Shown: positions 8,670-23,601 of the stretch, piece after piece
How the letters are laid out: every line of letters begins with the position of its first letter
Position numbering within the stretch: position 1 is the stretch's first letter
From: Tistrella mobilis KA081020-065
Lineage (GTDB): Bacteria; Pseudomonadota; Alphaproteobacteria; Tistrellales; Tistrellaceae
NCBI RefSeq assembly: GCF_000264455.2
Contig: NC_017958.1
Coordinates: 811,001 to 875,000, forward strand
DNA length: 64,000 nt
Reading direction: 5' to 3'
The notes under the pieces: generated by a model
Databases searched by the model: none
What the model was told of the DNA's origin: nothing
The model's input: only the letters and a program-made list of their open reading frames with translations
Position numbers and translations under genes: made by a program

Positions 8670-9127
8670 TCGAGGAAGGCGCCAAGGCCCCGGATTTCAC
8701 CATGCCCACCGATGGCGGCGGCGAGGTGTCGCTGGCCGCCCTCGCCGGCAAGACGGTGGTGCTCTATTTCTACCCGCGCGACGACACGCCCGGCTGCACC
8801 AAGGAGGCCTGCGCCTTCCGCGATCTGCATCCGGCGCTGGAAAAGCTGGATGCGGTGGTGATCGGCGTGTCGAAGGACAGCGTCGCCGCCCATGACAAAT
8901 TCAAGGCCAAATACGACCTGAACTTCCCGCTGGCGGCCGATACCGACGGCGCGGTCTGCGAGGCCTATGGCGTCTGGGTCGAGAAGAACATGTATGGCCG
9001 CAAGTCGATGGGCATCGAGCGCAGCACCTTCCTGATCGACGGCACCGGCACCGTGCGGAAGATCTGGCGCAAGGTGAAGGTCGACGGCCATGCCGAGGCC
9101 GTGAAGGCGGCCATCGACGCGCTCTGA
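8666..9127 (+). CDS. bcp: Thioredoxin-dependent peroxiredoxin (BCP/PrxQ type)
   Basis: A 153-residue thiol peroxidase. The active site is DDTPGCTKEAC, with the peroxidatic Cys44 and the resolving Cys49 five residues later, the arrangement of E. coli BCP (atypical 2-Cys PrxQ). The PRDDTPGC loop, VIGVSKDS strand and ERSTFLID segment are also family hallmarks. It reduces hydrogen peroxide and organic hydroperoxides in the cytoplasm with thioredoxin as donor. Its start codon overlaps the glnE stop. The DUF455 gene follows after 3 bases, so the three probably form one transcript. Confidence 0.96.
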   Translation: MIEEGAKAPDFTMPTDGGGEVSLAALAGKTVVLYFYPRDDTPGCTKEACAFRDLHPALEKLDAVVIGVSKDSVAAHDKFKAKYDLNFPLAADTDGAVCEAYGVWVEKNMYGRKSMGIERSTFLIDGTGTVRKIWRKVKVDGHAEAVKAAIDAL

Positions 9128-9130
9128 CGG

Positions 9131-10033: not shown

Positions 10034-10068
10034 GGGCCATCACATCACGACATCGGACGATCCGGACC

Positions 10069-10593
10069 ATGCTCATCCGCGACGCGGCTGCCGCCGACCT
10101 GCCCGGCATCCTTGCCATCTATAACGACGCCGTGGTCAACACCACCGCGATCTGGAACGAGCGCCTGGCGACGCTCGATGATCGCAGCCGCTGGCTCGCC
10201 GCACGCCACGACGCCGGCTATCCGGTTCTGGTGGTCGAAGACGGCTCGATCGAGGGCGGGGTTGCCGGCTATGCGAGCTTCGGCGACTGGCGACCCTTCG
10301 ACGGCTATCGCCACACGGTCGAGCATTCGGTCTATGTCCACCCCGATGCCCGCGGCCGCGGGCTGGGCCGCGCTCTGATGGAGGCCCTGATCGACCGGGC
10401 GACCCGGGCCGGCAAGCATGTGATGGTGGCCGGCATCGATGCCGGCAACACCGCCTCTCTCGACCTGCACCGCCGGCTGGGCTTCACCGAAACCGGCCGC
10501 CTGCCGCAGGTGGGCGCCAAATTCGGCCGCTGGCTGGACCTGGTGTTCATGCAGCGCCGGCTGTCGGAACGGGGGGTGCCGCCGGAGATGTGA
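10069..10593 (+). CDS. GNAT N-acetyltransferase, phosphinothricin/methionine-sulfone acetyltransferase type
   Basis: A 174-residue single-domain GNAT enzyme. The acetyl-CoA pyrophosphate-binding loop is R95-G-R-G-L-G100, preceded by the EHSVYVHPDA strand. The ending DAGNTASLDLHRRLGFTETG and the short GAKFGRWLDLVFMQ tail are the signature of the Pat/MddA branch. Enzymes of this branch acetylate the amino group of phosphinothricin, methionine sulfoximine or methionine sulfone, detoxifying glutamine-synthetase inhibitors. The physiological substrate here is unknown. Its location a few genes downstream of glnE is suggestive but may be coincidence. The gene begins 35 bases after the DUF455 stop. 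Confidence 0.88.
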   Translation: MLIRDAAAADLPGILAIYNDAVVNTTAIWNERLATLDDRSRWLAARHDAGYPVLVVEDGSIEGGVAGYASFGDWRPFDGYRHTVEHSVYVHPDARGRGLGRALMEALIDRATRAGKHVMVAGIDAGNTASLDLHRRLGFTETGRLPQVGAKFGRWLDLVFMQRRLSERGVPPEM

Positions 10594-10642
10594 TCGGCAT
10601 CTCCGGACACCCGTGCAGCGCAGGAGTCTCTTTTCCTGCAAG

Positions 10643-10666
10643 GGCCAAATGACGATATCATTGGCC
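10643..10666. promoter_or_regulatory. Palindrome upstream of the Phd-VapC operon (candidate autoregulatory operator)
   Basis: The site has 6-base inverted arms GGCCAA (10643-10648) and TTGGCC (10661-10666), with a nested AATGA/TCATT pair inside. It lies about 30 bases before the antitoxin start codon and contains a TATCAT hexamer that could be a -10 element. Phd-type antitoxins repress their own promoter by binding palindromes in this position. Confidence 0.45.
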
Positions 10667-10695
10667 AGGATCACTCCCGGCCGGAGGAAACCAAC

Positions 10696-10950
10696 ATGGG
10701 GCATGTCCGCAGTATTGCCGCCGCGGAAGCGCGCGATCACCTGGATGATCTGCTTGAAGCCGTCGCTCAGGGCGAAGAAGTTGCCATCATGCGCGACGGC
10801 AGGGTCATCGCCCGGCTCATCGGATGCCCTTCCAAAGAAGCCGGAAGCAGAGCACTTGAGGGTGTGGAACGGATGATCGCGACACGCGCCGGTACTACGC
10901 TGGGCGGTGTCGCCACGATAAAGGATCTCATCGAAGACGGTCGTCGATGA
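10696..10950 (+). CDS. Type II antitoxin, Phd/YefM family
   Basis: An 84-residue protein with the N-terminal Phd/YefM DNA-binding fold: SIAAAEARDHLDDLLEAVAQ, then GEEVAIMRDGRVIARLIG. The C-terminal tail should wrap the toxin. A good ribosome binding site (GGAGG, 10683-10687) precedes the ATG. The last four bases overlap the toxin start (ATGA), the classic coupled antitoxin-toxin arrangement. The first 40 residues are the confident part. The module is less GC-rich than its neighbours, which fits horizontal acquisition. Confidence 0.88.
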   Translation: MGHVRSIAAAEARDHLDDLLEAVAQGEEVAIMRDGRVIARLIGCPSKEAGSRALEGVERMIATRAGTTLGGVATIKDLIEDGRR

Positions 10951-11381
10951 GCCTGGTGCTTGACGGATCCGTCGTTCTTGCCTGGTGCTTTGACGACGAA
11001 GTCACGCCGGCGATCGACGATCTGATGCGTCATGTTGCCCGCAACGGTGCTGTTGTCCCTGCGATATGGCATCTGGAGGTCGCAAACGGTCTGCGAACCG
11101 CACTCCGTAAACAGCGGCTGACAACCGGACGGCGTGATGAGCTGATGGACATACTGAAGCTTCTTCCTATTGAACCGGATACCGAAACGGCCCGGACGGC
11201 TTGGGAGAAGACCCTTCAGCTGTCGGACAAACATGGTCTGACACCATATGATGCCAGTTATGTCGAGCTTGCGCTGCGAAGAGCGTTGCCCATTGCCACG
11301 TTGGACCAGGCGATGTGTAACGCCGCGCGTGCCTGCAGCGTGGATGTGATCGGGCTTTCATCCCGGTCTGCGGGCGTCTGA
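10947..11381 (+). CDS. VapC-like PIN-domain ribonuclease toxin
   Basis: A 144-residue PIN-domain protein. The acidic active-site residues are all visible: Asp6 in VLDGSVV, Glu44 in HLEVAN, Asp102 in PYDASYVELA and Asp120 in TLDQAM. PIN toxins cleave specific RNAs, often tRNAs, with Mg or Mn when the antitoxin is degraded. Its start overlaps the Phd gene by 4 bases. PIN toxins with a Phd rather than an AbrB-type partner are a common hybrid pairing. With all four acids intact it is probably active, unlike the second VapC in this window (38892-39296). Confidence 0.9.
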   Translation: MSLVLDGSVVLAWCFDDEVTPAIDDLMRHVARNGAVVPAIWHLEVANGLRTALRKQRLTTGRRDELMDILKLLPIEPDTETARTAWEKTLQLSDKHGLTPYDASYVELALRRALPIATLDQAMCNAARACSVDVIGLSSRSAGV

Positions 11382-11394
11382 GCCTTTTGGGGCG

Positions 11395-12753
11395 CTACAT
11401 GACCACCACCTCCATCTCCGGCTGCCCGGCATAGTCCAGGCGGATGGCGCCGCGGGCGGGGCGGGTCAGGGTGATGGGGCCGGGTTTTTCGTCCAGGCGG
11501 CGGCGAAGCAGGATCAGGCGGGTTTCCAGATTGTCCTTGAAATCCGGCAGGCGCAGGGCCGCATCGCGGCGGATTTCACGGTTGGTGAAATCCTGACGCC
11601 CGGTCGCCAGATAGGCCGTGACGAAATGGTGGAGCAGCCGGCCGGGCACGCCGCGGATCAGATAGTCGCCGTCGATGAAGATGCTGCCGTCGCGCGGGAA
11701 ATAGCGCAGCCGGATCGGGCGCCGGCCCGCGGGCGCCGGGTCGGGTGCCTCGGCCGCTGGTGCCTCCCCGCGCTCCGCCTCGGCCCGGTCGAGGGCGAGG
11801 GCGAGCGTTGCGGCCACGATCGACAGCACCGCCTCTTCCGCATGGCCGAAGGCGAAGCTTTCGGCCGATTCGGCGAAAAGCACCCCCACAAGCCGGCCCT
11901 GGGCGATCATCGGTACCGCCAGCTGGCATTGCGGCTGCGCCAGGGACGGAAACGGAATCCCGATCACAGGCGGCCGGTCCATCGCCCCCCTGACGGCCGC
12001 GACATAGCGCTGGCCGCGGCGCATGTCGGCGATGCGCAGCACCCGGCGGCGCAGGGCGGCCACGCCGATCACCCCCTCCCCCAGCGCCACTTCCGACCCG
12101 ACGCCGAATTGCGGATAACCACGGCTGGCGATGGTGGTGAGCAGGCCGCCGGTTTCGTCCGGAACCGCCACCACCAGATTGCCCATGCCCAGATCCGCAA
12201 CCAGGCGATCGAGAGTGAGATCGAGCAGACGGTCGGCATCGGGCTCCGCCGCCATCAGGGCGGCCAACCGGGCCGCGACCGCCAGATGATCCGGCGCTTG
12301 CGGCCGGGGTGGCGGCGTCTCCAGCGGTTCCGCCGCCACCACCCGGGTCACCGCCTCCACCCGGTAGAGATCGACCGCGCGCAGGCGCATCACCTCGCCC
12401 ATGCCCTGGGCGGCGCTCATCACCTCCAGATGGACGGCGATGCGCTCGAACACCTCGCCCGTGGTTCGGGCACCGACGAAGACCAGGTCGAGCAGGAACT
12501 GGTCGCCGGTGCGGGCATCGACCACCATCACCGTCGCCCGGCCCGTGCGGCGGACATTGGCCGCGGTCTTGGAAAAGAACTGGTTCGACAGCGCGACATG
12601 GCCCGCATCCACATAGTGGACGTGGGAGAGATAGGAGATGTTTGGCATGCCGTCGGCATCGAGGGTGGCGATGACCGAGGGGATGATGCCTTCCAGCGCA
12701 TCGCGCAGCGCATCAAGGCCCGGCAGCGCATCAAGGCCCAGGCCGACGGTCAT
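11395..12753 (-). CDS. PPOX split-barrel flavoprotein fused to GAF and a C-terminal winged-helix-like domain
   Basis: A 452-residue protein in three parts. Residues ~15-140 form a pyridoxamine-phosphate-oxidase-like FMN split barrel (IIPSVIATLDADGMPNISYL, later GRATVMVVDARTGDQFLLDL). Residues ~190-345 form a GAF domain with QCQLAVPMIAQGRLVGVLFA. The last ~90 residues contain FIDGDYLIRGVPGRLLHHFV, then a helical segment (TNREIRRDAALRLPDFKDNL) ending in a strand hairpin, which looks like a winged-helix output module; that last call is tentative. The layout suggests a cytoplasmic flavin or redox sensor with possible DNA- or protein-binding output. It is translationally coupled (4-base overlap) to the smaller PPOX gene upstream. 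A start at the ATG 12753 gives the natural N-terminus; the frame stays open further upstream without meaning. Confidence 0.75.
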   Translation of the reverse strand: MTVGLGLDALPGLDALRDALEGIIPSVIATLDADGMPNISYLSHVHYVDAGHVALSNQFFSKTAANVRRTGRATVMVVDARTGDQFLLDLVFVGARTTGEVFERIAVHLEVMSAAQGMGEVMRLRAVDLYRVEAVTRVVAAEPLETPPPRPQAPDHLAVAARLAALMAAEPDADRLLDLTLDRLVADLGMGNLVVAVPDETGGLLTTIASRGYPQFGVGSEVALGEGVIGVAALRRRVLRIADMRRGQRYVAAVRGAMDRPPVIGIPFPSLAQPQCQLAVPMIAQGRLVGVLFAESAESFAFGHAEEAVLSIVAATLALALDRAEAERGEAPAAEAPDPAPAGRRPIRLRYFPRDGSIFIDGDYLIRGVPGRLLHHFVTAYLATGRQDFTNREIRRDAALRLPDFKDNLETRLILLRRRLDEKPGPITLTRPARGAIRLDYAGQPEMEVVVM

Positions 12754-13238
12754 GGCTGCGCGTCCCGGGGCGTGTTTGCGGCGCCGAGCGGCCGGCCGGC
12801 AGTCGGGCCCGGGGTCTGGTCGAAGACTTCGCGCGGCTGAATGTCGATGCGTAGCAGATCCCGGTCGGTGAGGGTCTGGGACAGCTGAAGCCGGCTGACG
12901 CCGAGCGCCCCCATCACCCCCAGCATGCGCGCGACATAGGCCGTGCCCTCGGCCGCATCGGCCGGGCCGGCGGGCGCGACGGCCGTGATCATGCCCTTGA
13001 TCTGATAGGTGCGGTAGTCGTGGGGCCGCGCACAGGTGACCGCGATCGGCCCGCCGTCGACGGCGCCCGAGGCCGCCCCCGGCCAGAGGCTGCGCGACAT
13101 CAGCACCGCAAGCCCGTTGCCCTTGTCCCGCAGGATCCCCGAACCGCGACCGATCGTGGCCCTTCCGGCCGGATCCCGGGTCGAGACCAGGATCATCAGC
13201 GGCCCGGCGAGCACGGCCGCCACCTCGTCGTCGATCAT
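12750..13238 (-). CDS. Small PPOX-family flavin split-barrel protein
   Basis: A 162-residue protein. GPLMILVSTRDPAGRATIGR and the following hydrophobic strands fit the pyridoxamine-5'-phosphate-oxidase-like split barrel, which binds FMN or F420-type cofactors. Its substrate is unknown. The most natural start is the ATG at 13238, but this codon lies in a three-copy 24-base repeat in which each copy has a GGAGG element and an in-frame start codon (ATG 13236-13238, GTG 13260-13262, ATG 13284-13286). Longer forms would simply add eight-residue WEGAGG-type repeats. It runs into the PPOX-GAF gene with a 4-base overlap and is divergent from the hemerythrin gene. Confidence 0.7.
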   Translation of the reverse strand: MIDDEVAAVLAGPLMILVSTRDPAGRATIGRGSGILRDKGNGLAVLMSRSLWPGAASGAVDGGPIAVTCARPHDYRTYQIKGMITAVAPAGPADAAEGTAYVARMLGVMGALGVSRLQLSQTLTDRDLLRIDIQPREVFDQTPGPTAGRPLGAANTPRDAQP

Positions 13239-13304
13239 GCCTCCGGCCCCCTCCCAGATCACGCCTCCGGCCCCCTCCCAGATCATGCCTCCCGCCCCCT
13301 CCCA
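13233..13304 (-). repeat. Three tandem 24-base repeats, each with a ribosome binding site and start codon
   Basis: Copies lie at 13233-13256, 13257-13280 and 13281-13304 and differ at only one or two bases. Read on the minus strand each contains GGGAGGGGG and ends in a GGAGGCATGATC-like block (GTG in the middle copy, GGGAGG in the outer one). Because 24 is divisible by three, all start codons are in the same frame as the PPOX gene. Confidence 0.9.
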
Positions 13305-13324
13305 CACGTCTCCCCCGTCTGATT

Positions 13325-13363
13325 TTTAGGAAACGGCTGCGGCCGTTAGCAAGCATTTAGGAA
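13325..13363. promoter_or_regulatory. Paired TTTAGGAA direct repeats in the PPOX/hemerythrin divergent region
   Basis: TTTAGGAA occurs at 13325-13332 and again at 13356-13363. The spacing is 31 bases, about three helical turns, so both would face the same side of the DNA. Between them lies AACGGC-TGCG-GCCGTT, a short hairpin. The location between divergent start codons suggests a shared regulator binding site, but no known consensus is recognised. Confidence 0.35.
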
Positions 13364-13444
13364 GAGCCGTTCCAGCTGTCGGCGTAGAAACGCAACCACA
13401 GGATGGGCCCCGACAGCAGGGGCCGCCCCAGAGGAGGACACCTG

Positions 13445-14173
13445 ATGACCATGATCCACGGCAGCCGGTCCGACGCCGCCATCACCCCGATCCTGCCGCT
13501 GGACGGGCGGTACGATCTTTACGGCCCCGTGCACAAGGGGCTGCGGCGGGCCGGCATGGCCCTGCTCGACCGGCTGGGCCGGGCGGATTTCGCCAGCCCG
13601 GCCGCAACCACCGGTCTGCTGACCGAGCTGCGCGACTATCTGCGGCTCGCCACCGCCCATATCGCCCATGAAAGCGACACCATCCACCGGGCGCTGGAGG
13701 CCCGCACGGGGCCCGCGACCCAGGAACTCGATCGCCAGCATGCCGATCATCACCGCTCCATCACCGGGCTGATCGCAAGGATCACCGCGCTGACCGACGA
13801 CTTCTCCGGGACCCGCGAAGAGGCCGGCCGTGCGCTCTATCTGGCCTTCGCGGCCCATCTGGCCCGGGATTTCGCCCATATGCACGAGGAAGAGACGGTG
13901 ACCACGCCCCTGCTTCAGGCCGTGTTCAGCGATGCCGAACTGGCCGCGATCGAGATGGAGATCGTGAGCACACTGTCGCCCGAGATGAACCTGGCCTTCA
14001 TGCGGCTGATCATCCCGGCACTGTCGCCGGCCGAGCGGGTGCGGCTGCTGGGCGGCGTGCGTGCTACGGCCCCGGCCGAGGTGTTCCGGCTGCTGATGGA
14101 CGAGGTCGCCCGGCCGCTGCTGCCGCCGGCCGATTTCGCCGACCTCGCCCTCAGGCTGCAGATCGCGGCCTGA
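13445..14173 (+). CDS. Hemerythrin HHE-domain protein
   Basis: A 242-residue helical protein. The histidine pattern of bacterial hemerythrin-like domains is present: HIAHESDTIHRALEAR (about 70-85), HADHHRSITGLI (about 98-109) and HLARDFAHMHEEETVTTPLL (about 139-158), the last with the HxxxE ligand set. Such proteins bind a di-iron centre that senses or carries oxygen, nitric oxide or other small ligands. About 80 C-terminal residues beyond the HHE bundle are helical and of unknown role. A strong GAGGAGG ribosome site precedes the ATG at 13445. The 3' end overlaps the convergent MFS gene by 23 bases. Confidence 0.85.
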   Translation: MTMIHGSRSDAAITPILPLDGRYDLYGPVHKGLRRAGMALLDRLGRADFASPAATTGLLTELRDYLRLATAHIAHESDTIHRALEARTGPATQELDRQHADHHRSITGLIARITALTDDFSGTREEAGRALYLAFAAHLARDFAHMHEEETVTTPLLQAVFSDAELAAIEMEIVSTLSPEMNLAFMRLIIPALSPAERVRLLGGVRATAPAEVFRLLMDEVARPLLPPADFADLALRLQIAA

Positions 14174-15398
14174 CGCTGCGCTCCCGCTGGAAGGCGGCCG
14201 CCAGGATCGCGGCCATCATCACCAGGATCGAAAGCATCAGCCCCGCCCGGATGCCGTCGGCGCCATCGGCGACCAGACCGCTCATCAGCGGCCCGATGCT
14301 CTGGCCTGCGGCAAAGCCCACGGTCAGAAAGCCGATGGCATGGGTCCAGCCATGGGGGTCGACATTGCGCCGCACGCAGGCGGTCATCGCCGCCACCGCG
14401 GCCAGGAAGGCGCCGCCGAACAGAATGGCAGAGAGCCAGGCGGCGCCACGGCTTTCGAAGAACAGCGGGATGGCGGCGGCAAGGGTGGTGACACCGATGG
14501 TGGCGACACTGCCCCAGCCGCCGCGAAGCCGCGCCAGCACGGGCCCCCAGGCGAAGGCCCCGATCATGGCGGCGATGCCGACCAGCGCCCAGAAGAGCGA
14601 GATTTCCCAGGCCAGGAAATGCTGGGTGTCACGCAGATAGGCGACGATATAGGTGGCATAGGCGATGTAGCCGAGGCCGTAGAGAGCGTAGCTGACGATC
14701 TGCGGTGCCATGAAACGGATCGACCAGCCGCGGCCGGAACTGCCCGCCGGGGCCGGCCCCGGATGCGGCGCGCGGGCAAGCGCCGGCGCGGCGATCGCCA
14801 TCGCCGCGAACGAGAGCAGGCCGAGGGCGAACCAGCCCGCCTGCCAGCCGGCCGCGGCCACCAGCGGCGGCACAATCAGGGCCGAGACCACCACGCCCAG
14901 GCCGCCGCCGCCGAAATAGATGCCCAGCACCAGCGGTGCCCGGCCGGGTCCCCCACCCTGCCCGGCCGCGGCGGCAATGGCGCTGCCGGCGATGAAGGCG
15001 ACGGCACCGGTGGCGCCGCCGAGCGTGCGCAGCACCAGCAGCGGCACCAGCAACCCGGTCAACCCCGAGCAGAACAGGGTCGCCGCGGTGATCAGACCGC
15101 CGATCATGAAGGCCCTGGCGCCACCGATGGCGCGGATGACCGGCGCCGCGATCAGCGCGCCGATCACGAAGCCGAGCCCGCTTGCCGCATTCATGGCGCC
15201 GGCCTCGGTGAAACTCCAGCCCAGATCGCTGCGCATCGACGGCAGCAGCAGGGCATAGGCGAACCGGCCGAGCGCCATGCTGACCGCCGGCATCATGGCA
15301 AGCCCCGCAGCCACCCGGAGCGACACCATGGCAGGCGGGGCGGCTTCCACGCTGTCCGCCGCCCGCGATCCACCGGATGCGATCGGGTTTTCCGTCAC
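14151..15398 (-). CDS. YbfB/YjiJ-type MFS transporter
   Basis: A 415-residue membrane protein with about 12 predicted helices. The opening SLRVAAGLAMMPAVSMALGRFAY, then LLPSMRSDLGWSFTEAGAMN, is the hallmark of the YbfB/YjiJ family, whose substrates are mostly unknown. It is the last gene of the minus-strand run that begins with the radical SAM-ACP gene (19039) and passes through a methyltransferase and a MaoC hydratase. The gap to the MaoC stop is about 30 bases, so it is probably co-transcribed. This would make it the exporter of whatever the operon makes, which is inference. Confidence 0.85.
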   Translation of the reverse strand: MTENPIASGGSRAADSVEAAPPAMVSLRVAAGLAMMPAVSMALGRFAYALLLPSMRSDLGWSFTEAGAMNAASGLGFVIGALIAAPVIRAIGGARAFMIGGLITAATLFCSGLTGLLVPLLVLRTLGGATGAVAFIAGSAIAAAAGQGGGPGRAPLVLGIYFGGGGLGVVVSALIVPPLVAAAGWQAGWFALGLLSFAAMAIAAPALARAPHPGPAPAGSSGRGWSIRFMAPQIVSYALYGLGYIAYATYIVAYLRDTQHFLAWEISLFWALVGIAAMIGAFAWGPVLARLRGGWGSVATIGVTTLAAAIPLFFESRGAAWLSAILFGGAFLAAVAAMTACVRRNVDPHGWTHAIGFLTVGFAAGQSIGPLMSGLVADGADGIRAGLMLSILVMMAAILAAAFQRERSVRPRSAA

Positions 15399-15428
15399 CT
15401 GTATCTCCCAGAGGATGATGGGTGCCGG

Positions 15429-15905
15429 TCACCCGGCGACCTCCTGCGCCGCCGGTCGCCGCCTGAGGACGACCGACCCCACATAGGATAGTACGGGTTC
15501 TTCATCCTGGTTGAACATTTCGAACAGAAATCTGCCGATCCCGCGATCCCGGGCATCGGGGATCGGCCGGGTATCGATCACCGTTACCCGGCCACCGAGC
15601 GTGTCGCCCGGGCGGATCGGTCGGATCCAGCGGACATCGGCAAGGCCGGCCCCGCCGATGCTACAGGCGCGGAACAGGCCGCGGTCGATGAACAGCCGGA
15701 AGCTGAGGGCCAGTGTATGGAAACCGCTCGCGACCAGCCCGCCCATGGGCGAGCGGGCGGCAGCCTCGCGGTCCAGATGAAAGGGCTGCGGGTCGAAACG
15801 CAGCGCGAAATCGATGATCTGGCTTTCGGTGACGGTGATGCCTGCCAGCGGGAACACCTCACCCTTGGCGAAATCCTCGAAATACCGGTCCGCGGCCGCC
15901 GTCAT
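15429..15905 (-). CDS. MaoC-family dehydratase (enoyl-thioester hydratase fold)
   Basis: A 158-residue single hot-dog domain protein. The hydratase dyad is retained in FDPQPFHLD (Asp and His five residues apart, as in the GDxNPLH motif of R-specific hydratases), followed by GLVASGFHTLAL and IRPGDTL. These enzymes hydrate or dehydrate acyl-CoA or acyl-ACP substrates. It overlaps the upstream methyltransferase by 4 bases. It is clearly related to the second MaoC gene at 20898-21386: both start with RYFED and share FDPQ..H, the GL.ASG.H block, RLFID, VRW.RP.RPGD and a C-terminal NQ(D/E)EV.-type stretch. The two therefore frame the quorum-sensing genes on both sides. Confidence 0.88.
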   Translation of the reverse strand: MTAAADRYFEDFAKGEVFPLAGITVTESQIIDFALRFDPQPFHLDREAAARSPMGGLVASGFHTLALSFRLFIDRGLFRACSIGGAGLADVRWIRPIRPGDTLGGRVTVIDTRPIPDARDRGIGRFLFEMFNQDEEPVLSYVGSVVLRRRPAAQEVAG

Positions 15906-16735
15906 GCCCCGACCACCCCGAAGACCATCTCCACCGGCGAGACCACGCCCCGCTGGATGTTGGTGAAGATGTTGACCATCTGGCGGACGGCCGTCTGGCC
16001 CATCGGGATGTGCAGCCCCAGCGGCGATACGCCTTCGGCCGCGGTACGGGCCTGAAGGTCACGGAAATAGGCAAGACCGAAGTCGCGACGGTCGCGTTCC
16101 GAGATCAGCGTGAAACCGGCCGCTTCTGCTGCCGCCCGATATTCCGCGGGAGACGAAACGAAGCTGGTGGTCTCGATGCTGGCCCAGGGGACCGGATAGG
16201 CGATCGCCCCGTCGGCCGTGCGCATCACGTCGTAGATCCCGAGCCGGCCGCCCGGTTTCAGCACCCGACGGATACCGGCGAACAGCCCGGGCTTGTCGGC
16301 GATGTTCATGCCGACATGCATGCAGGTCACCCGGTCGAAGCTGGTCGGAGCAAAGGGCAGTGCCGTGGCACTGGCCTCGCGATAGTCGATCCGTCCGCCC
16401 AGTCCCACCCGCTCCGCAAGGGCTTCGGCGGTCCGGACGAAATCGGGGGCCAGATCGATCGCCGTCACCCGGCATTGCCGCCGCTCGGCGAAATAGCGCG
16501 AGGCGCCGCCCAGCCCGCAGCCGATATCGAGCAGAGCCATGCCCGGCGCAAGGCCCAGCCGGTCGGCCAGATCGACCGTCGCCTGCCGGCCGCCGACATG
16601 GAATTCATCCACCGGCGCCAGATCTTCGAAAGACAGCCGCTCCGGATCCTTGCCGGCGGCTTCCAGCGCCGCGACGATCTTGCCCTCCAGCGCCGGACGG
16701 GCGTAATGCGCGGCGAAATCGCTCTCGAAACTCAT
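15902..16735 (-). CDS. Class I SAM-dependent methyltransferase
   Basis: A 277-residue protein. Motif I is LLDIGCGLGGASRYF (about 69-83), followed by the acidic end of strand 2 (VTAIDLAPDF) and the post-I region PGGRLGIYDVM. The FAERRQCRVTAIDLAPDFV block and the N-terminal helical cap resemble small-molecule O-/C-methyltransferases of the UbiE/sarcosine-dimethylglycine type, not RNA or protein methylases. It follows the radical SAM-ACP gene by 36 bases and overlaps the MaoC gene by 4 bases, so it belongs to the same operon. The substrate cannot be predicted. Confidence 0.88.
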   Translation of the reverse strand: MSFESDFAAHYARPALEGKIVAALEAAGKDPERLSFEDLAPVDEFHVGGRQATVDLADRLGLAPGMALLDIGCGLGGASRYFAERRQCRVTAIDLAPDFVRTAEALAERVGLGGRIDYREASATALPFAPTSFDRVTCMHVGMNIADKPGLFAGIRRVLKPGGRLGIYDVMRTADGAIAYPVPWASIETTSFVSSPAEYRAAAEAAGFTLISERDRRDFGLAYFRDLQARTAAEGVSPLGLHIPMGQTAVRQMVNIFTNIQRGVVSPVEMVFGVVGA

Positions 16736-16771
16736 CGATACCTCCTCCCTTGGTGCCGTCGTTCCGCACCG

Positions 16772-19039
16772 TCACTCGGCCGCCTGGAGGGCGGCTTCCT
16801 CGATGATGAAATCGGCCAGATGTCCCGGGCTGCGAAACGGGCTGATCCGCCGCGATACCGCCCGGTCGGAGGTCAGCGTCACCGGCAGATTGAGCCGGTC
16901 GGCGAGTTTCTCCTCGACCCCGACCAGGAAATTGACCAGTTGAATGGAATCCAGCACCCCGCCCTCGCCGTAGAGAACGATCCCGTCCAGCGCATCGAGC
17001 GGGAGCTTCTCGATCCGGGTCTCGTTGATCTCGGCGATGGTTTCGTCGATCACGGCGACGATCTGGTCCTTGCTTGCCATCATGACACCTCGTTGAGCGA
17101 AGGAAGGGTCCGCTTCGGCCAGCCCCGTTTCGGCCAGCCCCGTTTCGGCCGGCCCCGTTTCAGACAGGCTCTCCACCCGGGCCAGGTAATGAGCGGTGAC
17201 CTCGTGATTGGTCGAACGCACCGAGGCGCCGAAGCCCTGGCGGAAACGGAACCGGAAACGGTGGCGGCCGACACCGGGCGGCTCGGTCAGCCGGTCGGCG
17301 GTGCGGGCCCGGTCGATCAGGGCCGGCGGGTCGATGTCGTAATCCCGGATCACCTGCCAGTGCGGGATGTCGCCTGCCTCGTCCTCGAAAACCTCGGGGA
17401 AGTTGCGGTGCGCCGGGTCGACCAGGGGCCGGGTCTCCAGCTCGAAGCGGATCAGTTCGGCCATGGACCGCCGCCATCGGGGCGGCAGGCGATGGTCGAG
17501 CACCTGGCGGCGCCAGTCCTCGATCAGCGCATCGAAGCGGCGATCGGTGCAGCAGAATTCCAGCGCCGGCGCCAGTGTGTCGGGATCGGCGAAGGCGGCA
17601 TGGGCCGCCTGACGCAGGATCTCCGCACCCGCGGCGCGCGATGCCTCGACATGGCCACCGATCGACAGGATCGCCGCCGACTGGCTCAACCCCGCCACGG
17701 CCCGCAACACCGGCCAGAGGCCGCGGAAGACCAGGTTCTCGGCCAGAAGCCGCGCCCAGAACAGGAAGCGGGTCATGCGCAGATGGTCGTGCAGACCGGC
17801 ACTGCGGTTGGCCAGGATGTATTCGAAATCGTCGCGCTCGCCCCGCACGGTGATGAAGCCGTGCTCAGCCCGACGATCGGTGAAATCGGTATTGGGCAGC
17901 AGAAGCAGGGGATAGGCCGCGATCCGGGTGACGTGGCGGGCAAGCTCGTCATAACCGCGCAGGAAGGATGCCGGCGTCTCGCCCGGCGCGCCCCAGATCA
18001 GCTCGGCATAGACGTCGAGCCCTTCGGCCGACAGCCAGGCGGCCAGCTCCTTCCAGTCGTTGATCCGCATGTTGCGACGGTTCATCGTCCCCAGCGTCTC
18101 GTCGTCGAGGGTCTGGAGCGCCAGGGTGAAAGAAGATTGCAGCCCCTCGCGCTTCATCAGCCGGACGATGTCGCGGAAGGTCGCGTTCTTGTTCTTAGCC
18201 CACGAGGTTTCCAGTGCCGTCGGGAAGCCATAGCGGTCGCGGATCTCGATCAGATCGCGCACGAAATCCATGTCCTGGTGGAGCATGCCGAAATTGGCAT
18301 CGCACAGGACCACCGTCCGGGCCCCCGCCCGGGCCACCGCCTCCAGCTCGGCCCTGAGGCGCGCCCGCGAAAAGCTGCGGACCTTCTGGCCGACGGCCCC
18401 ACCCCAATAGCAGAAGGCACAGTGATAGGGGCAGCCGCGATTGGTCTCCATCAGTGCGACGTCATAGCGGAACGCGCCGTCGTCATCGGTCAGCGGGATG
18501 ACGCCCTCCAGAATCGGCGAGGGGATGGCATCGAGATTCAGGATCCGCGGCCGCTCGGGCGTGGTGACCACGTCCCCCGCACCGTCACGAAACGAGATGC
18601 CGGCGACATCGCCGAGGGGCATCATGCCCAACCGGGCGCGGACGATCTCGGTGAAGGCGAACTCGCCCTCGCCGTTCACGACGATGTCGACCTCGGGACA
18701 GAGCCGGAAGATACGCGCCGCCTGATTGGCGACATGGGTTCCGCCGAAGACGATCGTCACCCCGGGGTCGACCTGTCTCAGGGTTTCGGCCACGGCCGAG
18801 AACTGGCGCAGGTTCCAGCCCAGCACCGAGAAGCCGACCAGGTCGGGAACCCCGTCCTCAAGCAGGCGCACCGCCATCTCCAGCGGCGTGACCGTGCCCG
18901 AGAAATTGGCGATCGACACCTCGCAACCTGTTGCGAGCACCGGGTCCGCACGGATGCAGCCGGCGAGATAACCGGCGGCAAGCGGCATGGATTCCCTGGC
19001 CATATGCCAGACGCCCTGCTGAACGATCGTGATCCGCAT
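16772..19039 (-). CDS. B12-binding-type radical SAM protein fused to a C-terminal acyl-carrier domain
   Basis: A 755-residue protein with an unusual domain order. Residues 1-140 form a Rossmann-like B12-binding-type domain (GFSVLGWNLRQF, VFGGTHVANQA, VVNGEGEFAF). The radical SAM core follows with CPYHCAFC, giving Cys203, Cys207 and Cys210 as [4Fe-4S] ligands. A helical C-terminal extension runs to about 640. A low-complexity linker of three five-residue repeats (ETGPA/ETGLA, encoded at 17114-17158) leads to an acyl-carrier domain (about 655-750) with GVLDSIQLVNFLVGVEEKL, where Ser698 would receive phosphopantetheine. Radical SAM enzymes of this class do C-methylation or other radical chemistry. 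The fused carrier suggests an acyl or aminoacyl substrate tethered in cis. The gene heads an operon with a methyltransferase, MaoC and MFS genes and is divergent from luxR-luxI. I do not recognise a characterised homologue. Confidence 0.82.
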   Translation of the reverse strand: MRITIVQQGVWHMARESMPLAAGYLAGCIRADPVLATGCEVSIANFSGTVTPLEMAVRLLEDGVPDLVGFSVLGWNLRQFSAVAETLRQVDPGVTIVFGGTHVANQAARIFRLCPEVDIVVNGEGEFAFTEIVRARLGMMPLGDVAGISFRDGAGDVVTTPERPRILNLDAIPSPILEGVIPLTDDDGAFRYDVALMETNRGCPYHCAFCYWGGAVGQKVRSFSRARLRAELEAVARAGARTVVLCDANFGMLHQDMDFVRDLIEIRDRYGFPTALETSWAKNKNATFRDIVRLMKREGLQSSFTLALQTLDDETLGTMNRRNMRINDWKELAAWLSAEGLDVYAELIWGAPGETPASFLRGYDELARHVTRIAAYPLLLLPNTDFTDRRAEHGFITVRGERDDFEYILANRSAGLHDHLRMTRFLFWARLLAENLVFRGLWPVLRAVAGLSQSAAILSIGGHVEASRAAGAEILRQAAHAAFADPDTLAPALEFCCTDRRFDALIEDWRRQVLDHRLPPRWRRSMAELIRFELETRPLVDPAHRNFPEVFEDEAGDIPHWQVIRDYDIDPPALIDRARTADRLTEPPGVGRHRFRFRFRQGFGASVRSTNHEVTAHYLARVESLSETGPAETGLAETGLAEADPSFAQRGVMMASKDQIVAVIDETIAEINETRIEKLPLDALDGIVLYGEGGVLDSIQLVNFLVGVEEKLADRLNLPVTLTSDRAVSRRISPFRSPGHLADFIIEEAALQAAE
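17114..17158 (-). repeat. Three 15-base repeats in the linker of the radical SAM-ACP gene
   Basis: Units at 17114-17128, 17129-17143 and 17144-17158 are nearly identical and encode a five-residue unit (ETGPA, ETGLA, ETGLA). They lie exactly between the radical SAM and acyl-carrier domains. In-frame gain or loss of units would alter linker length without breaking the protein. Confidence 0.85.
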
Positions 19040-19444
19040 CTTGCACGACCTCGCGATCGGCGGCGGCCAGTCTGACGCCGGCGCCGGGTTGGTGACTGGG
19101 ATTGCGGAGGTGCGGGAATGTCGATATCGAGCCTAGGGGAGAGCCGGATGCACAGCCACCCCCCAAAGTTTGCCACTACACATCTAATAGTTGCAGCAAC
19201 ATCGGGCGCCGGTCAGAGACTCATTTTCTCCTGTAGTGCTGCAAATTAGATTTCATATTATGAAACTATTCAATTTTACTTAGAGAATGAGGTTTATTCA
19301 CCTTCACATAAGATGTCGTCTGCTCAGCTAATCAACCTTCTTGACCAGTCCTGAACTATGAGCCACGCTTCACCCATTGATGTGACGATGTCAGAGAGGC
19401 AGCGCCCGATGGGTGGGCCGACCGGTCGTCCGGAGGGCAGCGAG
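19040..19444. other. 405-base intergenic control region between divergent quorum-sensing transcripts
   Basis: No convincing gene is present. Apart from the dyads at 19190-19249 the region holds several AT-rich blocks (for example around 19243-19290) able to supply -10 elements in either direction, and TTGACC at 19341-19346. An ATG at 19358 is in frame with luxR and could extend it by 29 residues, but it lacks a ribosome site. Confidence 0.6.
19190..19249. promoter_or_regulatory. Two lux-box-like dyads in the AT-rich region between the radical SAM operon and luxR
   Basis: Dyad 1 is GTTGCAGCAAC (19190-19200), a perfect 11-base palindrome. Dyad 2 is CTGTAGTGCTGCAAATTAG (19231-19249), with symmetry CT-N4-TGC-N-GCA-N4-AG. 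Both share a TGC-N-GCA core and their centres lie 45 bases apart. In addition CTAAT-AG-TTGCAGCA (19184-19198) is repeated in inverted form as TGCTGCAAATTAG (19237-19249). The stretch from about 19160 to 19345 is strikingly AT-rich for this genome. LuxR-type regulators bind dyads of 18-20 bases near promoters, so these are good candidates for control of both transcripts. A match to a defined lux-box consensus has not been tested. Confidence 0.5.
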
Positions 19445-20188
19445 ATGACCCAGGACCGGATCATTCATGATCAGGGACGGGACGCCTTCGACTTCATCGA
19501 CGCCGTCTCGGACCTGCATGACCCGGACGAGATCATCGCCCGGTTCCATCGGGCGGTGGCCCGGTACGGCTATGCCACCTTCATCATCACGGGCCTGCCG
19601 GGCCTGACGGAGCCGTTCGAAACCAGGGTGCTGACACGGCACTGGCCGGATGCCTGGTTCCGGATCTACACAGCCGAGACCTACATTCTGGACGACCCGG
19701 TCGGCTGGCACTGCCGGGTGGCCCCTGCCCCCTTCGCCTGGTCGGAGGCCCCTTTCGACCCCGGCCGACAGCCGCGATCCCGGCGGATCATGGAAGAGGC
19801 CGCAAGCTTCGGAATGAAGGACGGGCTGTGCGTGCCGGTTCACGGCCTGCAGGGGCTGGACTGGTGCGTATCGCTGGGCGGGCCCGATCCCGATCTGTCA
19901 CCACGCGCCCGAGCCGCCGTGCATCTGATGGCGCTTTATGCCTTCGACGGCCTGCGCCGACGGCTGCTCAGCCCCGACACCCCGCCACCGCGCCGCCTGA
20001 CCGCGCGCGAGCGCGAGGTGATCGCCTGGACCGCCGCCGGCAAATCGGCCTGGGAAGCGAGCTGCATCCTGGGGATCGCCGAGGATACCGTGAACAAGCA
20101 CGCCGCTTCTGCCGCCCGCAAGCTCAATGCCGCCAACAAGACCCAGGCCGTCGCCGAGGCGATCCGTCGGCACGAGATCCCCTGGTGA
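19445..20188 (+). CDS. luxR: LuxR-family acyl-homoserine-lactone receptor/transcription factor
   Basis: A 247-residue regulator. The N-terminal autoinducer-binding domain keeps all six invariant residues with exact family spacing: W and Y in WFRIY, the DDP pair nine residues later, the W in FAWSEA and the G in SFGMKDG. The C-terminal domain is a GerE/LuxR helix-turn-helix (RRLTAREREVIAWTAAGKSA, then EDTVNKHAASAARKLNAANK). It should bind the AHL made by the adjacent LuxI and regulate promoters with lux boxes. The ATG at 19445 has a GGAGGG site; the in-frame ATG at 19358 does not. luxI follows 32 bases downstream. The symbol is generic for the family. Confidence 0.94.
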   Translation: MTQDRIIHDQGRDAFDFIDAVSDLHDPDEIIARFHRAVARYGYATFIITGLPGLTEPFETRVLTRHWPDAWFRIYTAETYILDDPVGWHCRVAPAPFAWSEAPFDPGRQPRSRRIMEEAASFGMKDGLCVPVHGLQGLDWCVSLGGPDPDLSPRARAAVHLMALYAFDGLRRRLLSPDTPPPRRLTAREREVIAWTAAGKSAWEASCILGIAEDTVNKHAASAARKLNAANKTQAVAEAIRRHEIPW

Positions 20189-20220
20189 GACGTATTTCCG
20201 ATGAACCTGGAGGACCTGCG

Positions 20221-20901
20221 ATGATCCGTGTGGTGGGGGCCGCAAACCGATGGCGTCACCGGGCGGCGATCGAGGCACATCATCGCATCCGCCACGAGAT
20301 CTTCGTCGGCGAGCGCGGCTGGCACGAACTGGCCCGGCCCGATGGCCGCGAGATCGACGCCTTCGACGGGCCCGACGCGATCTATGTGCTCGCCATGGCC
20401 GGCGCTGAGGTGACCGGCGGCTTCCGACTGTGCCCGACCACAGCGCCGCATATGCTGAGCGAGGTCTTCCCGCATCTGGTGACCAACGGCCCGCTACCGC
20501 GCGGCGACCATGTTCTGGAATGGACGCGGCTGTTCGTCGCGCGCGATCACCGCTCGGGCCGGACCTATTTCGAACTGCTCGCCGCCCTGCAGAGCCTGTG
20601 CCTCCATGCCGGCATCCGCGAGGTGACCGGGGTGATCGAAAGCTGGTGGCTGCCCAGATTTCACGAAGCGGGCTTCGCGGTGCGGCCGCTGGGTCTGCCC
20701 CAGATGGTGGCAGGCCAGCCGACGCTTGCCATCGCCATCGCCATCGACCGCGCCGCACTCGCCCGGGTCCGCGAACTGGGCCATCTGCGGCCACCCCCGC
20801 CGCTCGCTTCCCCACCCCTCGCCGCTTCAGGGGGCGAGGGTGCCAGCCGTTTCATGACCGATACCCAACCCGCCCCGCAACCAGGGAGACCCGGATCGTG
20901 A
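20221..20901 (+). CDS. luxI: Acyl-homoserine-lactone synthase
   Basis: A 226-residue LuxI-type enzyme. The conserved residues of the family are all in place: Arg24, Phe28 and Trp34 (RHEIFVGERGW), Asp46 and Asp49, Arg69 (GGFRL), Phe83, Glu100 and Arg103 (EWTRLF). It condenses SAM with an acyl chain, normally delivered as acyl-ACP, to make an AHL signal. A GGAGG site lies 8 bases before the ATG. The last ~35 residues are Pro/Ala-rich and dispensable-looking. Its stop codon overlaps the GTG start of a MaoC hydratase gene, so signal synthesis and a hydratase are made together, which points to a modified (unsaturated or hydroxylated) acyl chain. That is inference. Confidence 0.95.
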   Translation: MIRVVGAANRWRHRAAIEAHHRIRHEIFVGERGWHELARPDGREIDAFDGPDAIYVLAMAGAEVTGGFRLCPTTAPHMLSEVFPHLVTNGPLPRGDHVLEWTRLFVARDHRSGRTYFELLAALQSLCLHAGIREVTGVIESWWLPRFHEAGFAVRPLGLPQMVAGQPTLAIAIAIDRAALARVRELGHLRPPPPLASPPLAASGGEGASRFMTDTQPAPQPGRPGS

Positions 20902-21386
20902 CCACCACCAGCTTCTCCGCCCCGATCGACGACCGCTATTTCGAGGATTATGTCCCGGGCTCGGTGTTCGAATTCGGCAGCCTGGAGGTCGATGCCGCGG
21001 AGATCGTGGAGTTCGCCCGCAAATTCGACCCGCAGACCATGCACACCGATCCGGAAGCCGCCGCAAAGGGCCCGTTCAAAGGGCTGATCGCCAGCGGCTG
21101 GCACAGCGCCGGGTTGATGATGCGCCTGTTCATCGACAACTATCTGTCGCATGTGGCGAGCCTGGCCTCGCCCGGTGTCGACGAGGTGCGCTGGTACCGG
21201 CCGGTCCGGCCCGGCGATCGGCTGAAGATCCGCGTGACGGTGATGGAGGCCCGGCCCTCGGCGTCGAAGCCCGACCGGGGCATGGTCCGCTCACTGGTCG
21301 AGGTGATCAATCAGGAAGACGAGGTGGCGATGAGCATGAAGGCGATGAACCTGCTCGCCCGGCGCCATCCGGCCGGCGCCGGCTGA
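20898..21386 (+). CDS. MaoC-family dehydratase coupled to luxI
   Basis: A 162-residue hot-dog protein starting at a GTG that overlaps the luxI stop (GTGA). The Asp/His hydratase pair is present in FDPQTMHTD, followed by GLIASGWHSAGL and the VRPGD segment. It is a paralogue of the MaoC gene at 15429-15905. The translational coupling makes a role in preparing or altering the acyl group used by LuxI the simplest hypothesis. Alternatively it belongs to the pathway of the divergent radical SAM-ACP operon. The substrate is unknown. Confidence 0.88.
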   Translation: MTTTSFSAPIDDRYFEDYVPGSVFEFGSLEVDAAEIVEFARKFDPQTMHTDPEAAAKGPFKGLIASGWHSAGLMMRLFIDNYLSHVASLASPGVDEVRWYRPVRPGDRLKIRVTVMEARPSASKPDRGMVRSLVEVINQEDEVAMSMKAMNLLARRHPAGAG

Positions 21387-21414
21387 GGCCCGGACGGCCC
21401 CGTGCCCGAAGGGC

Positions 21415-22473
21415 TCAACGTTCTGCGCCGGTACCCGCAAAGGCCGAGATCAGCATGGCCACCCGCGGATCCGGCCTGAGCCCCGGAGCGGTATAGGCGG
21501 CGATATTGCCCGCCCGGTCGGCCGGGGCCGGTTTCAGCACATGGTTGAGCCCGGCCAGGATTTCGATCCGGGTATCTTTCGGGCGGCCCGCGGCCAGGCG
21601 GCGGGCATCGGCGGTGGTGACCTGAAGGTCGCGATCACCCTGCAGGATCAACACCGGCCCGCCGAAACGCTCCATCACGGTCGCGGGGTCGATGCCCAAC
21701 CACGAGATCAGATAGGGCTGAACGGAAGGCCGGAACAGCGGCGCCAGTTCCAGCGGCACATCGGCGACCTTCCGGCCGGCACCGAGATCGGCCAGGATCC
21801 GGTCGGCGGTACGGCGCAGATCATCCGGCATCGGGGCCTGGGCCAGCTGGCGTTCCAGCGTGCGGATGGCGGGCTCCCCCGGGGTCGCGGCCAGCACGAT
21901 GGCATCGGGTGCCTCGCGCCGTGCCGCCAGCAGGGCGATCAGCCCGCCTTCGCTGTGGCCGAGCACGATCACCGGCGCCCCGTCGGCCAGTTTGCGCGCG
22001 GCACGGGTCCATTGGGCGGCATCCGAGGCCAGCAGGTCGATGGTCATCAGCGCCTCGTCGGCAATCGCCGCCCGGCTGGCGCCGATGCCGCGCTTGTCGA
22101 CCCGCAGGCTGGCGATGCCGCGCGCCGCCAGATCTTCCGCCAGCATGCGCAACAGATCCGTGCGCAGCCCCGGCTGGTTGCCGTCGCGATCGGTGGGGCC
22201 CGACCCCGCCAGCATCAGCACCACCGGCAGCACCGCATCGGCACCGGCGGCACAGGGAAAGCCGAAACTGCCGACCAGATCGCCGGAAGCGTCGACCGGT
22301 GCCGGCATTGGCGCCTTGATCGCGATCTGACGCTCACACAGGGCCGCAGCCGGCGTCGCCAGCTGCGCCCGGGCCGGGGACGGCGCCAGCAGGCCGGCCT
22401 GAAACGACACGACCGCGGCGAGCAGAGCCGCCGCGGTCGCAAGGCGTCCGGTTGTCCGGAAGCGCGCCGTCAT
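21415..22473 (-). CDS. Secreted alpha/beta hydrolase
   Basis: A 352-residue protein with an N-terminal signal peptide (hydrophobic stretch about 11-27, ending near PARAQ). The alpha/beta-hydrolase fold shows LAGSGPTDRDGNQ (oxyanion region), the nucleophile elbow GHSEGG and the acid/His end LQGDRDLQV and LNHVLKP. These features fit the periplasmic YqiA/prolyl-oligopeptidase-like hydrolases of unknown substrate. Its ATG overlaps the stop of prfB by one base (TGATG), so it is translated by coupling from prfB. It converges on the luxI-linked MaoC gene with a 28-base gap. Confidence 0.83.
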   Translation of the reverse strand: MTARFRTTGRLATAAALLAAVVSFQAGLLAPSPARAQLATPAAALCERQIAIKAPMPAPVDASGDLVGSFGFPCAAGADAVLPVVLMLAGSGPTDRDGNQPGLRTDLLRMLAEDLAARGIASLRVDKRGIGASRAAIADEALMTIDLLASDAAQWTRAARKLADGAPVIVLGHSEGGLIALLAARREAPDAIVLAATPGEPAIRTLERQLAQAPMPDDLRRTADRILADLGAGRKVADVPLELAPLFRPSVQPYLISWLGIDPATVMERFGGPVLILQGDRDLQVTTADARRLAAGRPKDTRIEILAGLNHVLKPAPADRAGNIAAYTAPGLRPDPRVAMLISAFAGTGAER

Positions 22474-23601
22474 CAGTCGAGATCGCCGACATCGCCGGAG
22501 GTGCCCTCGACCCTGGCCGACAGCGCCGCCTGCATGAAGGCATCCAGATCGCCGTTCAGCACCGCCTGGGTGTTGCCGGTCTCCACCCCCGTGCGCAGAT
22601 CCTTGACCATCTGGTAGGGGTGCAGCACGTAGGAGCGGATCTGGTGGCCCCAGCCGATATCGGTCTTGGCATCCGCCTCGGCCTGGGCCTTTTCTTCCCG
22701 CATCCTGAGTTCGCGTTCGTACAGACGTGCCTTCAGCATGCCCATGGCGGTGGCGCGGTTCTTGTGCTGCGACCGGTCCTGCTGGCACTGCACCACGATG
22801 CCGGTGGGCACATGGGTGATGCGGATGGCGCTGTCCGTCCGGTTGACGTGCTGGCCACCGGCACCCGAGGCCCGGTAGGTATCGATGCGCAGATCCTTGT
22901 CCAGGATCTCGATGTCGATCGAGTCGTCGATCACCGGATAGACATGGACGGCGGCGAAGCTGGTCTGGCGCCGGGCCTGGCTGTCGAAGGGCGAGATGCG
23001 CACCAACCGGTGAACGCCGGTCTCGGTCTTGGCCCAGCCGAAGGCATTCTGGCCCTTGATCAGCAGGGTGGCCGACTTGATGCCCGCCTCTTCACCGTCG
23101 GTCTCTTCGACCAGCTCGGTCTTATAGCCGTGCGATTCCGCCCAGCGCGTATACATGCGCAGCAGCATCAGCGCCCAGTCCTGGCTTTCGGTGCCGCCGG
23201 CGCCGGCATGGACTTCAAGATAGCTGTCGTTGCCGTCGACCTCGCCCGAGAGCAGGCTTTCGACCTTGAGTTTCTGAAGCTCGTCGAGCAGCCGGCCGAG
23301 CGAAGCCTGGGCCTCGTCGACGACGCTTTCATCGTCTTCCATCTCGCCCAGTTCGGCGAGTTCCAGATCGTCGCGGAACGCCTGTTCCAGCTTGCGATAG
23401 CGCTCGATGGCGCCTTCGAGCTGGGTGCGTTCGCGCATCACCTTCTGCGCGCGCGCCGGATCATCCCAGAGCTTCGGATCTTCGGAGAGGGCGTTCAGCT
23501 CTTCGAGCCGGATGAGCGCGTTCTCCCAGTCAAAGATACCTCCTCAGCAGACCGAAGGTCTGCTCGATCTCGTCGGCGAGCGACTTGATCTCGGCGCGCA
23601 T
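22473..23601 (-). CDS. prfB: Peptide chain release factor 2, with programmed +1 frameshift
   Basis: Encodes a 375-residue RF2 only if the ribosome shifts by +1 once. The first 23 codons ([12 protein letters not shown]...) run from 23601 to an in-frame UGA at 23532-23530. The site reads AGGAGG-TAT-CTT-TGA-C, the classic RF2 autoregulatory signal. After the shift the protein continues [15 protein letters not shown]. The RF2-specific SPF tripeptide is at about 203-205 and the GGQ catalytic motif ([10 protein letters not shown]) at 248-250. RF2 releases peptides at UGA and UAA stops; low RF2 raises frameshifting and so restores its own level. A short hairpin lies between PBP1A and this gene. Confidence 0.97.
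23529..23544 (-). promoter_or_regulatory. RF2 programmed frameshift signal
   Basis: On the minus strand the internal Shine-Dalgarno AGGAGG (23544-23539) is followed by TAT, the slippery CTT (23535-23533), the UGA stop (23532-23530) and C. The spacing from AGGAGG to CTT is three bases, as in E. coli prfB. This sets translation efficiency of prfB by the RF2 level. Confidence 0.97.

Follow-up and report, generated by a model that had tools for sequence, protein, structure and literature searches.

It has been reported that, in cystobactamid biosynthesis, CysF makes a methoxy group on a pantetheine-bound aminobenzoate and CysS extends it to ethoxy, isopropoxy and butoxy groups (PMC12846815); such methylation is iterative, with TokK building an isopropyl group and CysS the isopropoxy and butoxy groups (PMC12846815). 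Among quorum-sensing enzymes, LuxI-type synthases of the BjaI clade prefer acyl-coenzyme A (acyl-CoA) to acyl-acyl carrier protein (acyl-ACP) (Christensen et al., PMC4234381), and BjaI also uses isovaleryl-ACP, with a kcat/Km about 48-fold below that for isovaleryl-CoA (PMC4234381). A LuxI of the acyl-CoA type in Mesorhizobium japonicum, encoded next to a crotonase-superfamily gene, gives 2E,4E-C12:2-homoserine lactone (HSL), of which a mutant without the crotonase gene makes little (PMC10470506). Here, a seven-gene islet with likenesses to each of these systems is described from Tistrella mobilis KA081020-065, in a stretch of 64,000 nucleotides (NC_017958.1, positions 811,001 to 875,000; the window) that lies in a 6.5-Mb, five-contig alphaproteobacterial genome.

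In our best reading, with a probability of about 0.45, the islet is a MaoC-assisted, acyl-CoA-type quorum circuit that controls carrier-bound C-alkylation and export, following a logic like that of CysF and CysS. Judged from sequence, its probable product is an unusual small molecule, made and exported when cells are crowded, or possibly an unusual signal. Like the cystobactamid pair, the islet combines a class I methyltransferase with a cobalamin-dependent radical S-adenosylmethionine (SAM) enzyme, of the kind that acts on a pantetheine-bound substrate, and CysS is the second-best match of the latter among solved structures; unlike that pair, it has a carrier-like domain covalently fused to the radical SAM enzyme, Glu277 in place of Trp271, no non-ribosomal peptide synthetase (NRPS), and luxR and luxI alongside (compared with PMC12846815). 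All the parts are members of known families or similar to them; their combination, the fusion to a carrier and the pairing of luxI with maoC are undescribed within the literature searched. The original prediction knew of no described pathway with this gene set, and none was met in that literature, which was searched at the level of listings, with papers mentioning Tistrella left unopened. The islet would be a compact transferred module in which a quorum circuit is coupled to radical C-methylation by a cobalamin enzyme that has a carrier fused to it.

Layout, limits and origins of the islet

The seven genes, all open frames, form a discrete islet of about 7.2 kb, whose features are as follows.

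14174–21424, no strand: strain-specific islet, whose flanks adjoin in the same-species genome G058
14151–15398, minus: major facilitator superfamily (MFS) transporter, YbfB-type (MFS_4), presumed exporter; PF06779, 178.8 bits
15429–15905, minus: MaoC-B, MaoC-like hydratase/dehydratase; PF01575, 69 bits; its start overlaps the methyltransferase stop (ATGA)
15902–16735, minus: class I SAM methyltransferase; PF08241, 81.5 bits
16772–19039, minus: KedN5-family cobalamin-dependent radical SAM C-methyltransferase (residues 3–622) with carrier-like domain; NF033712, 908.9 bits
16772–17083, minus: carrier-protein-like domain (fusion residues 653–755), which has an ATGATG of its own and a GAGGTG ribosome-binding-like site
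17110–17161, minus: linker-coding 15-bp tandem repeat, 3.5 copies
19040–19444, no strand: region from which the two arms diverge; its GC content is 54%, that of the islet 67%
19358–20188, plus: LuxR-type regulator, given as the longest frame, with a start that by eye is likely to be 19445, after GGAGGG; PF03472, 102 bits, and PF00196, 56 bits
20221–20901, plus: LuxI-type N-acyl-homoserine lactone (AHL) synthase of the BjaI (acyl-CoA) clade; PF00765, structure matches and tree
20898–21386, plus: MaoC-A, MaoC-like hydratase/dehydratase; PF01575, 69.9 bits; its GTG start overlaps the luxI stop (GTGA)

The plus arm thus reads luxR-luxI-maoC-A, and the minus arm, running away from luxR, reads radical SAM-carrier, methyltransferase, maoC-B and MFS; the gene content is observed directly, and the layout predicted originally stands, with open frames and domains at the places given. 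The limits of the islet, also observed directly, come close to those first proposed (14151–21386). Used as a DNA query against three genomes of the genus (its own, the same-species G058 and the same-genus G001), the islet was matched in its own genome only. With window positions 12500–23500 as the query, both flanks almost touch in G058 (200287–201905 and 201914–203989), with a gap of 8–19 bp depending on the alignment; the local alignment gives 19 bp and places the empty site directly past the stop of a hemerythrin-like gene. In G001, only the right flank was found, plus short paralogous matches. Because the seven genes are present or absent jointly, which is the best evidence for unity in this analysis, they can be treated as one unit, as had been predicted, and the gene overlaps (luxI/maoC-A and methyltransferase/maoC-B) support this. 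Since two of the three genomes of the genus are without the islet, gain is the simpler history, and the empty site in the same-species genome makes the gain of the module directly testable.

As for the origins of the genes, taken from the records searched, with tree placement for the radical SAM enzyme and LuxI only, the nearest relatives of the radical SAM enzyme are actinomycete and those of LuxI alphaproteobacterial; the best matches of MaoC-A are in Streptomyces plasmids (63%), that of the methyltransferase is in a Bradyrhizobium plasmid (50%), and those of MaoC-B are in Azospirillum plasmids (51–53%). Because the nearest relatives differ gene by gene, the islet looks assembled from several sources.

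The radical SAM enzyme and its carrier-like domain

The fusion frame has 755 codons. In the NCBIfam search, its score against the KedN5-family model is well over the cut-off of 700 and covers residues 3–622 and positions 1–623 of the 624 of the model; the enzyme is of the B12-dependent type, with matches to PF02310 (B12-binding, 57.3 bits) and PF04055 (radical SAM, 57.6 bits), and the cysteines of the CxxxCxxC cluster motif (Cys203, Cys207 and Cys210) do not vary in any of the 10 alignment rows. Cobalamin-dependent C-methylation is assigned to the radical SAM part by this family membership, the family name presumably deriving from the kedarcidin pathway. The nearest solved enzymes are TokK (6.8e-57) and CysS (2.5e-54), and Trp206 of CysS is kept as Trp212 in the alignment read by eye.

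No other KedN5-family protein scored above the cut-off in samples of 385 genomes of the class and 398 of the phylum. The scan of species genomes for relatives gave nine loci, all actinomycete, whose proteins are 47–64% identical to the window protein in full-length alignment, and a tenth relative is found on a Streptomyces plasmid. In a tree of 23 rows, the window enzyme groups with these ten rows at 100/99, apart from other proteobacterial B12 radical SAM rows; the root of this tree is unsure because one row (L003) is on a long branch. The window protein differs from its family in its fused carrier, which is present in 0 of the 10 relatives examined: they stop 624–654 residues past the aligned start.

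At the nine actinomycete loci, no MFS, MaoC, LuxI or carrier match was found at E<=1e-4, and the sole matches to islet proteins are one methyltransferase (32%, L027) and one LuxR-domain protein (40%, L029). In Saccharopolyspora spinosa (L030), the gene preceding the KedN5 relative encodes an NRPS with a methyltransferase inside its adenylation domain and its own carrier, and the counterpart in Actinokineospora auranticolor (L028) is 72% identical; at both loci (L030, 1776–11950; L028, 1873–11965), the KedN5-family gene comes after a carbamoyltransferase gene and the NRPS gene, a possible CysS-like methyl-extension pathway. In Actinopolyspora alba (L025, 8299–13316), the KedN5-family gene has a SAM hydroxide adenosyltransferase gene and a gene for a DUF2000 protein as neighbours, a LysE exporter lies downstream, and Actinomadura terrae (L027, 7782–13236) has a set that resembles it, the domains being those tested in L025. 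On the linear plasmid plas01 of Streptomyces sp. RerS4 (L075, 2238–15149), the KedN5-family gene is accompanied by metK, a phosphopantetheinyl transferase, a separate acyl carrier protein, a ketosynthase-like gene and two aminotransferases.

The C-terminal domain of the fusion was originally predicted to be an acyl-carrier domain. A carrier-like domain beside the B12 radical C-methylation enzyme is indeed real, but neither the domain nor two homologues match PF00550 at E<=5. Single-sequence AlphaFold prediction (mean pLDDT 73.6, with residues 23–42 mostly under pLDDT 50) gives helices at 5–22, 46–64, 73–78 and 86–102, and Ser46, the serine of a DSI motif whose DS is common to the three homologues in the alignment, opens helix 2. 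The full-length model has the same four helices at low confidence, with the linker (627–661) under pLDDT 50. In Foldseek, the top match is the carrier protein of 4h2x, a weak one (E 0.41, TM 0.45/0.57), and the sequence-profile matches to D-alanyl carrier protein are weak too (E 0.32). The identity of the domain reaches 52% with a carrier-like protein encoded in the core genome (L044) and, over the alignment, 55% with one on plasmid pT136b of Rhizobium sp. T136, with which it shares a conserved AVSRRISPF stretch; the pT136b system pairs its carrier with an adenylate-forming ligase, as a free-standing protein, whereas the islet has no ligase.

A profile search found nine such carriers in 8 of the 385 class genomes. 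Among the seven neighbourhoods examined (L044, L074 and L112–L116), four have an adenylate-forming enzyme (L044, L112 and L113 by Pfam, L074 by annotation), three of these with a short-chain dehydrogenase/reductase (SDR); L115 has an SDR and a likely ligase, a ligase was not found in L116, and no gene calls were obtained for L114. In L044, an AMP-binding enzyme of the same cluster, about 7 kb from the carrier homologue, is a possible loader in trans for the islet carrier. This core-genome cluster (L044, G000:C1:655000–672000, 8404–16972), also present in G001, comprises a condensation-adenylation-carrier-thioesterase NRPS, a CmlS-type halogenase, the free-standing carrier and, at 15752–16972, the adenylate-forming enzyme; pT136b carries an annotated set of related genes that likewise includes a CmlS halogenase.

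If the carrier works in cis, the fusion would be a single-polypeptide system for methylation of the CysS/TokK type. It has to be asked, however, whether the fusion is the working form: the carrier could be made free from its own start (or the fusion could be a sequence error), with the radical SAM enzyme taking a substrate that is free or bound to CoA, as its unfused relatives do. This explanation, which cuts across the others, is somewhat unlikely in our estimate. It draws on the linker being made of 15-bp repeats, on the ATGATG behind GAGGTG, on the eight carriers other than the window's lying in frames of 95–125 codons, and on all ten KedN5-family relatives ending without a carrier. The frame, however, is open throughout, and a frame error by repeat slippage was set aside, as 15-bp units keep the frame when the copy number changes; moreover, the internal start is only suggestive because an equally good Shine-Dalgarno match is found before 22 of the 354 other in-frame ATGs that lie inside predicted genes of the window. 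The fusion looks recent and may also yield free carrier. No carrier was found in the eight genomes with KedN5 relatives that were searched (L032 not among them), a negative that is weak because the search had no positive control.

The LuxI synthase and the MaoC beside it

The window LuxI is the sole PF00765 match in its genome; at E<=1e-15, neither of the two further genus genomes has a match, and 23 of the 385 class genomes do. Its best solved match is 5w8a (record title 'Autoinducer synthase'; E 5.9e-58, 50.0% identity over 180 residues), which we take to be BjaI, the isovaleryl-HSL synthase. The next is 6wn0, recorded as a 4-coumaroyl-HSL synthase, and 3p2f, presumably TofI, an acyl-ACP enzyme, is far weaker. 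In a tree of 32 rows (L065 left out; deepest split weak, at 62/23), LuxI and 5w8a belong to one clade of five rows, supported at 100/99, a placement observed directly, with 6wn0 and 6wns in the next clade at 91/85 and 3p2f elsewhere. A WWLPRFHEAG stretch is identical in the window LuxI and BjaI, and the two differ in that the window enzyme has a different C-terminal tail, a maoC overlap and an adjoining biosynthetic operon. Among plasmid records, the LuxI nearest to it by identity (54.7%) is on the megaplasmid of Methylorubrum extorquens AM1. Lysine and arginine residues in 26 ACP-contact columns number 2 in the window enzyme, 1 in BjaI, 3 in RpaI, 4 in TofI and 1–2 in several other rows, a count that alone does not separate the groups. 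By clade placement, the window LuxI is predicted to be of the acyl-CoA type. The premise of the original prediction, that LuxI enzymes take acyl-ACP donors, is thereby weakened, and acyl-ACP feeding of LuxI as the main route was set back by the tree place with BjaI; a C-methylated AHL becomes less probable yet keeps some weight, because BjaI still uses isovaleryl-ACP, though poorly.

The luxR-luxI-maoC arm looks like the same idea as the Mesorhizobium circuit carried out with a different fold. In both, luxR and a luxI of the acyl-CoA type are followed in the same row by a gene for an acyl-modifying enzyme; the islet is not a member of that system, its third gene being a PF01575 MaoC hot-dog protein and not a crotonase, and overlapping luxI where the Mesorhizobium gene lies 8 bp from it (compared with PMC10470506). 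The word 'MaoC' is absent from the main text of that paper (word search, PMC10470506). No MaoC match was found in seven other luxI loci (L073 and L076–L081; about 6–10 kb on each side). The arm would extend the recent finding of an acyl-CoA-type AHL synthase with a dedicated acyl-modifying enzyme. A DPQxxH stretch, whose Asp and His are presumably the catalytic pair of the MaoC family, is kept in both MaoC-A and MaoC-B. A further MaoC paralogue (L086, G000:C4:234500–253500, 9157–9642), with 68% DNA identity to the MaoC-B stretch over 385 bases, is present in all three genus genomes searched; other enzyme-like frames lie around it, one with a CNIRCKGC radical-SAM-like motif by eye.

Proposed pathway and its alternatives

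On these grounds, a horizontally assembled islet would combine a quorum circuit of its own with a single small operon for biosynthesis and export, for which we infer the carrier loading, the order of the steps, the regulation, the export and the product as follows. The BjaI-type LuxI would build an AHL from acyl-CoA, MaoC-A shaping that acyl-CoA by hydration or dehydration, as proposed for the Mesorhizobium crotonase, and LuxR with the AHL would turn on the divergent operon. As there is no ligase in the islet, the carrier domain would have to be loaded in trans, and it would present a small acid, to which the class I methyltransferase would add a methyl group; the fused KedN5-type radical SAM enzyme would then C-methylate in cis, once or repeatedly, as CysS follows CysF in cystobactamid biosynthesis. 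MaoC-B would adjust the chain, and the MFS protein would export the product.

Several observations weigh against this pathway. Trp271 of CysS, which contacts and gates the substrate (PMC12846815), aligns with Glu277, invariant in 10 of 10 KedN5-family rows (mapping by eye), so the substrate must differ from that of CysS. The methyltransferase is below the cut-off in all 25 NCBIfam families shown, and O-methylation is therefore a guess. The carrier may mainly be made as a free protein. In the Pfam search, the islet has no thioesterase or ligase, which leaves LuxI as its only acyl-releasing enzyme, and the 47% identity of MaoC-A and MaoC-B hints at chemistry common to both arms, or at a heteromer. 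Finally, the divergent region shows no lux box that stands out: its best palindrome (7/9) was matched in 86 of 100 shuffles, so AHL control is putative. Among 11 regions scored, a single one, the gap between luxR and luxI in L077, beat all 100 of its own shuffles.

This last result would also fit a quorum arm and an enzyme arm that are merely co-resident, with LuxR-LuxI acting on other targets and the enzyme operon constitutive or otherwise regulated. Such independence, with which the mixed origin of the nearest relatives across genes among the records searched would agree as well, appears improbable, since the arms diverge around one AT-richer region and are jointly present or absent in the three genomes of the genus.

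The lack of another acyl-releasing enzyme favours a different use of the same genes, in which the whole islet makes an unusual AHL: the radical SAM enzyme would C-methylate a carrier-bound acyl group (for example to an isopropyl- or tert-butyl-ended one), the MaoC pair would set unsaturation or hydroxylation, LuxI would unload the chain onto SAM, and the MFS protein would export or clear the signal. Inheritance of the islet as one block, the two related MaoCs, one per arm, and the iterative building of isopropyl by TokK and of isopropoxy and butoxy by CysS (PMC12846815) are consistent with it, as are the acceptance by BjaI of the isopropyl-ended isovaleryl group and its poor use of acyl-ACP (PMC4234381). 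Nevertheless, LuxI belongs to a clade that prefers acyl-CoA, the methyltransferase would be without a clear role, and the operons are divergent rather than single. Isovaleryl-CoA is normally supplied by leucine breakdown, and because it is available, radical chemistry would be needed only for a rarer acyl group. We regard this use as unlikely, and as equally doubtful the self-contained form of it, a C-methylated-AHL pathway with the radical SAM enzyme acting in cis on its fused carrier, two MaoCs tuning the chain and a BjaI-type LuxI regaining the use of a dedicated carrier. If it is true, we know of no earlier quorum signal built through radical C-methylation and of no earlier cobalamin radical SAM methyltransferase with a fused carrier. 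The original prediction had offered either an AHL with an unusual acyl chain or an AHL-controlled metabolite; the former, as a C-methylated AHL, is weakened by the LuxI clade, while the latter, which the pathway with CysF/CysS-like logic embodies, fits somewhat better.

RNA families gave no gathering-level matches anywhere in the window. At 10696–11381, an overlapping gene pair resembles an antitoxin and a PIN-type toxin by eye, and its GC content (0.58–0.61) is below that of its surroundings.

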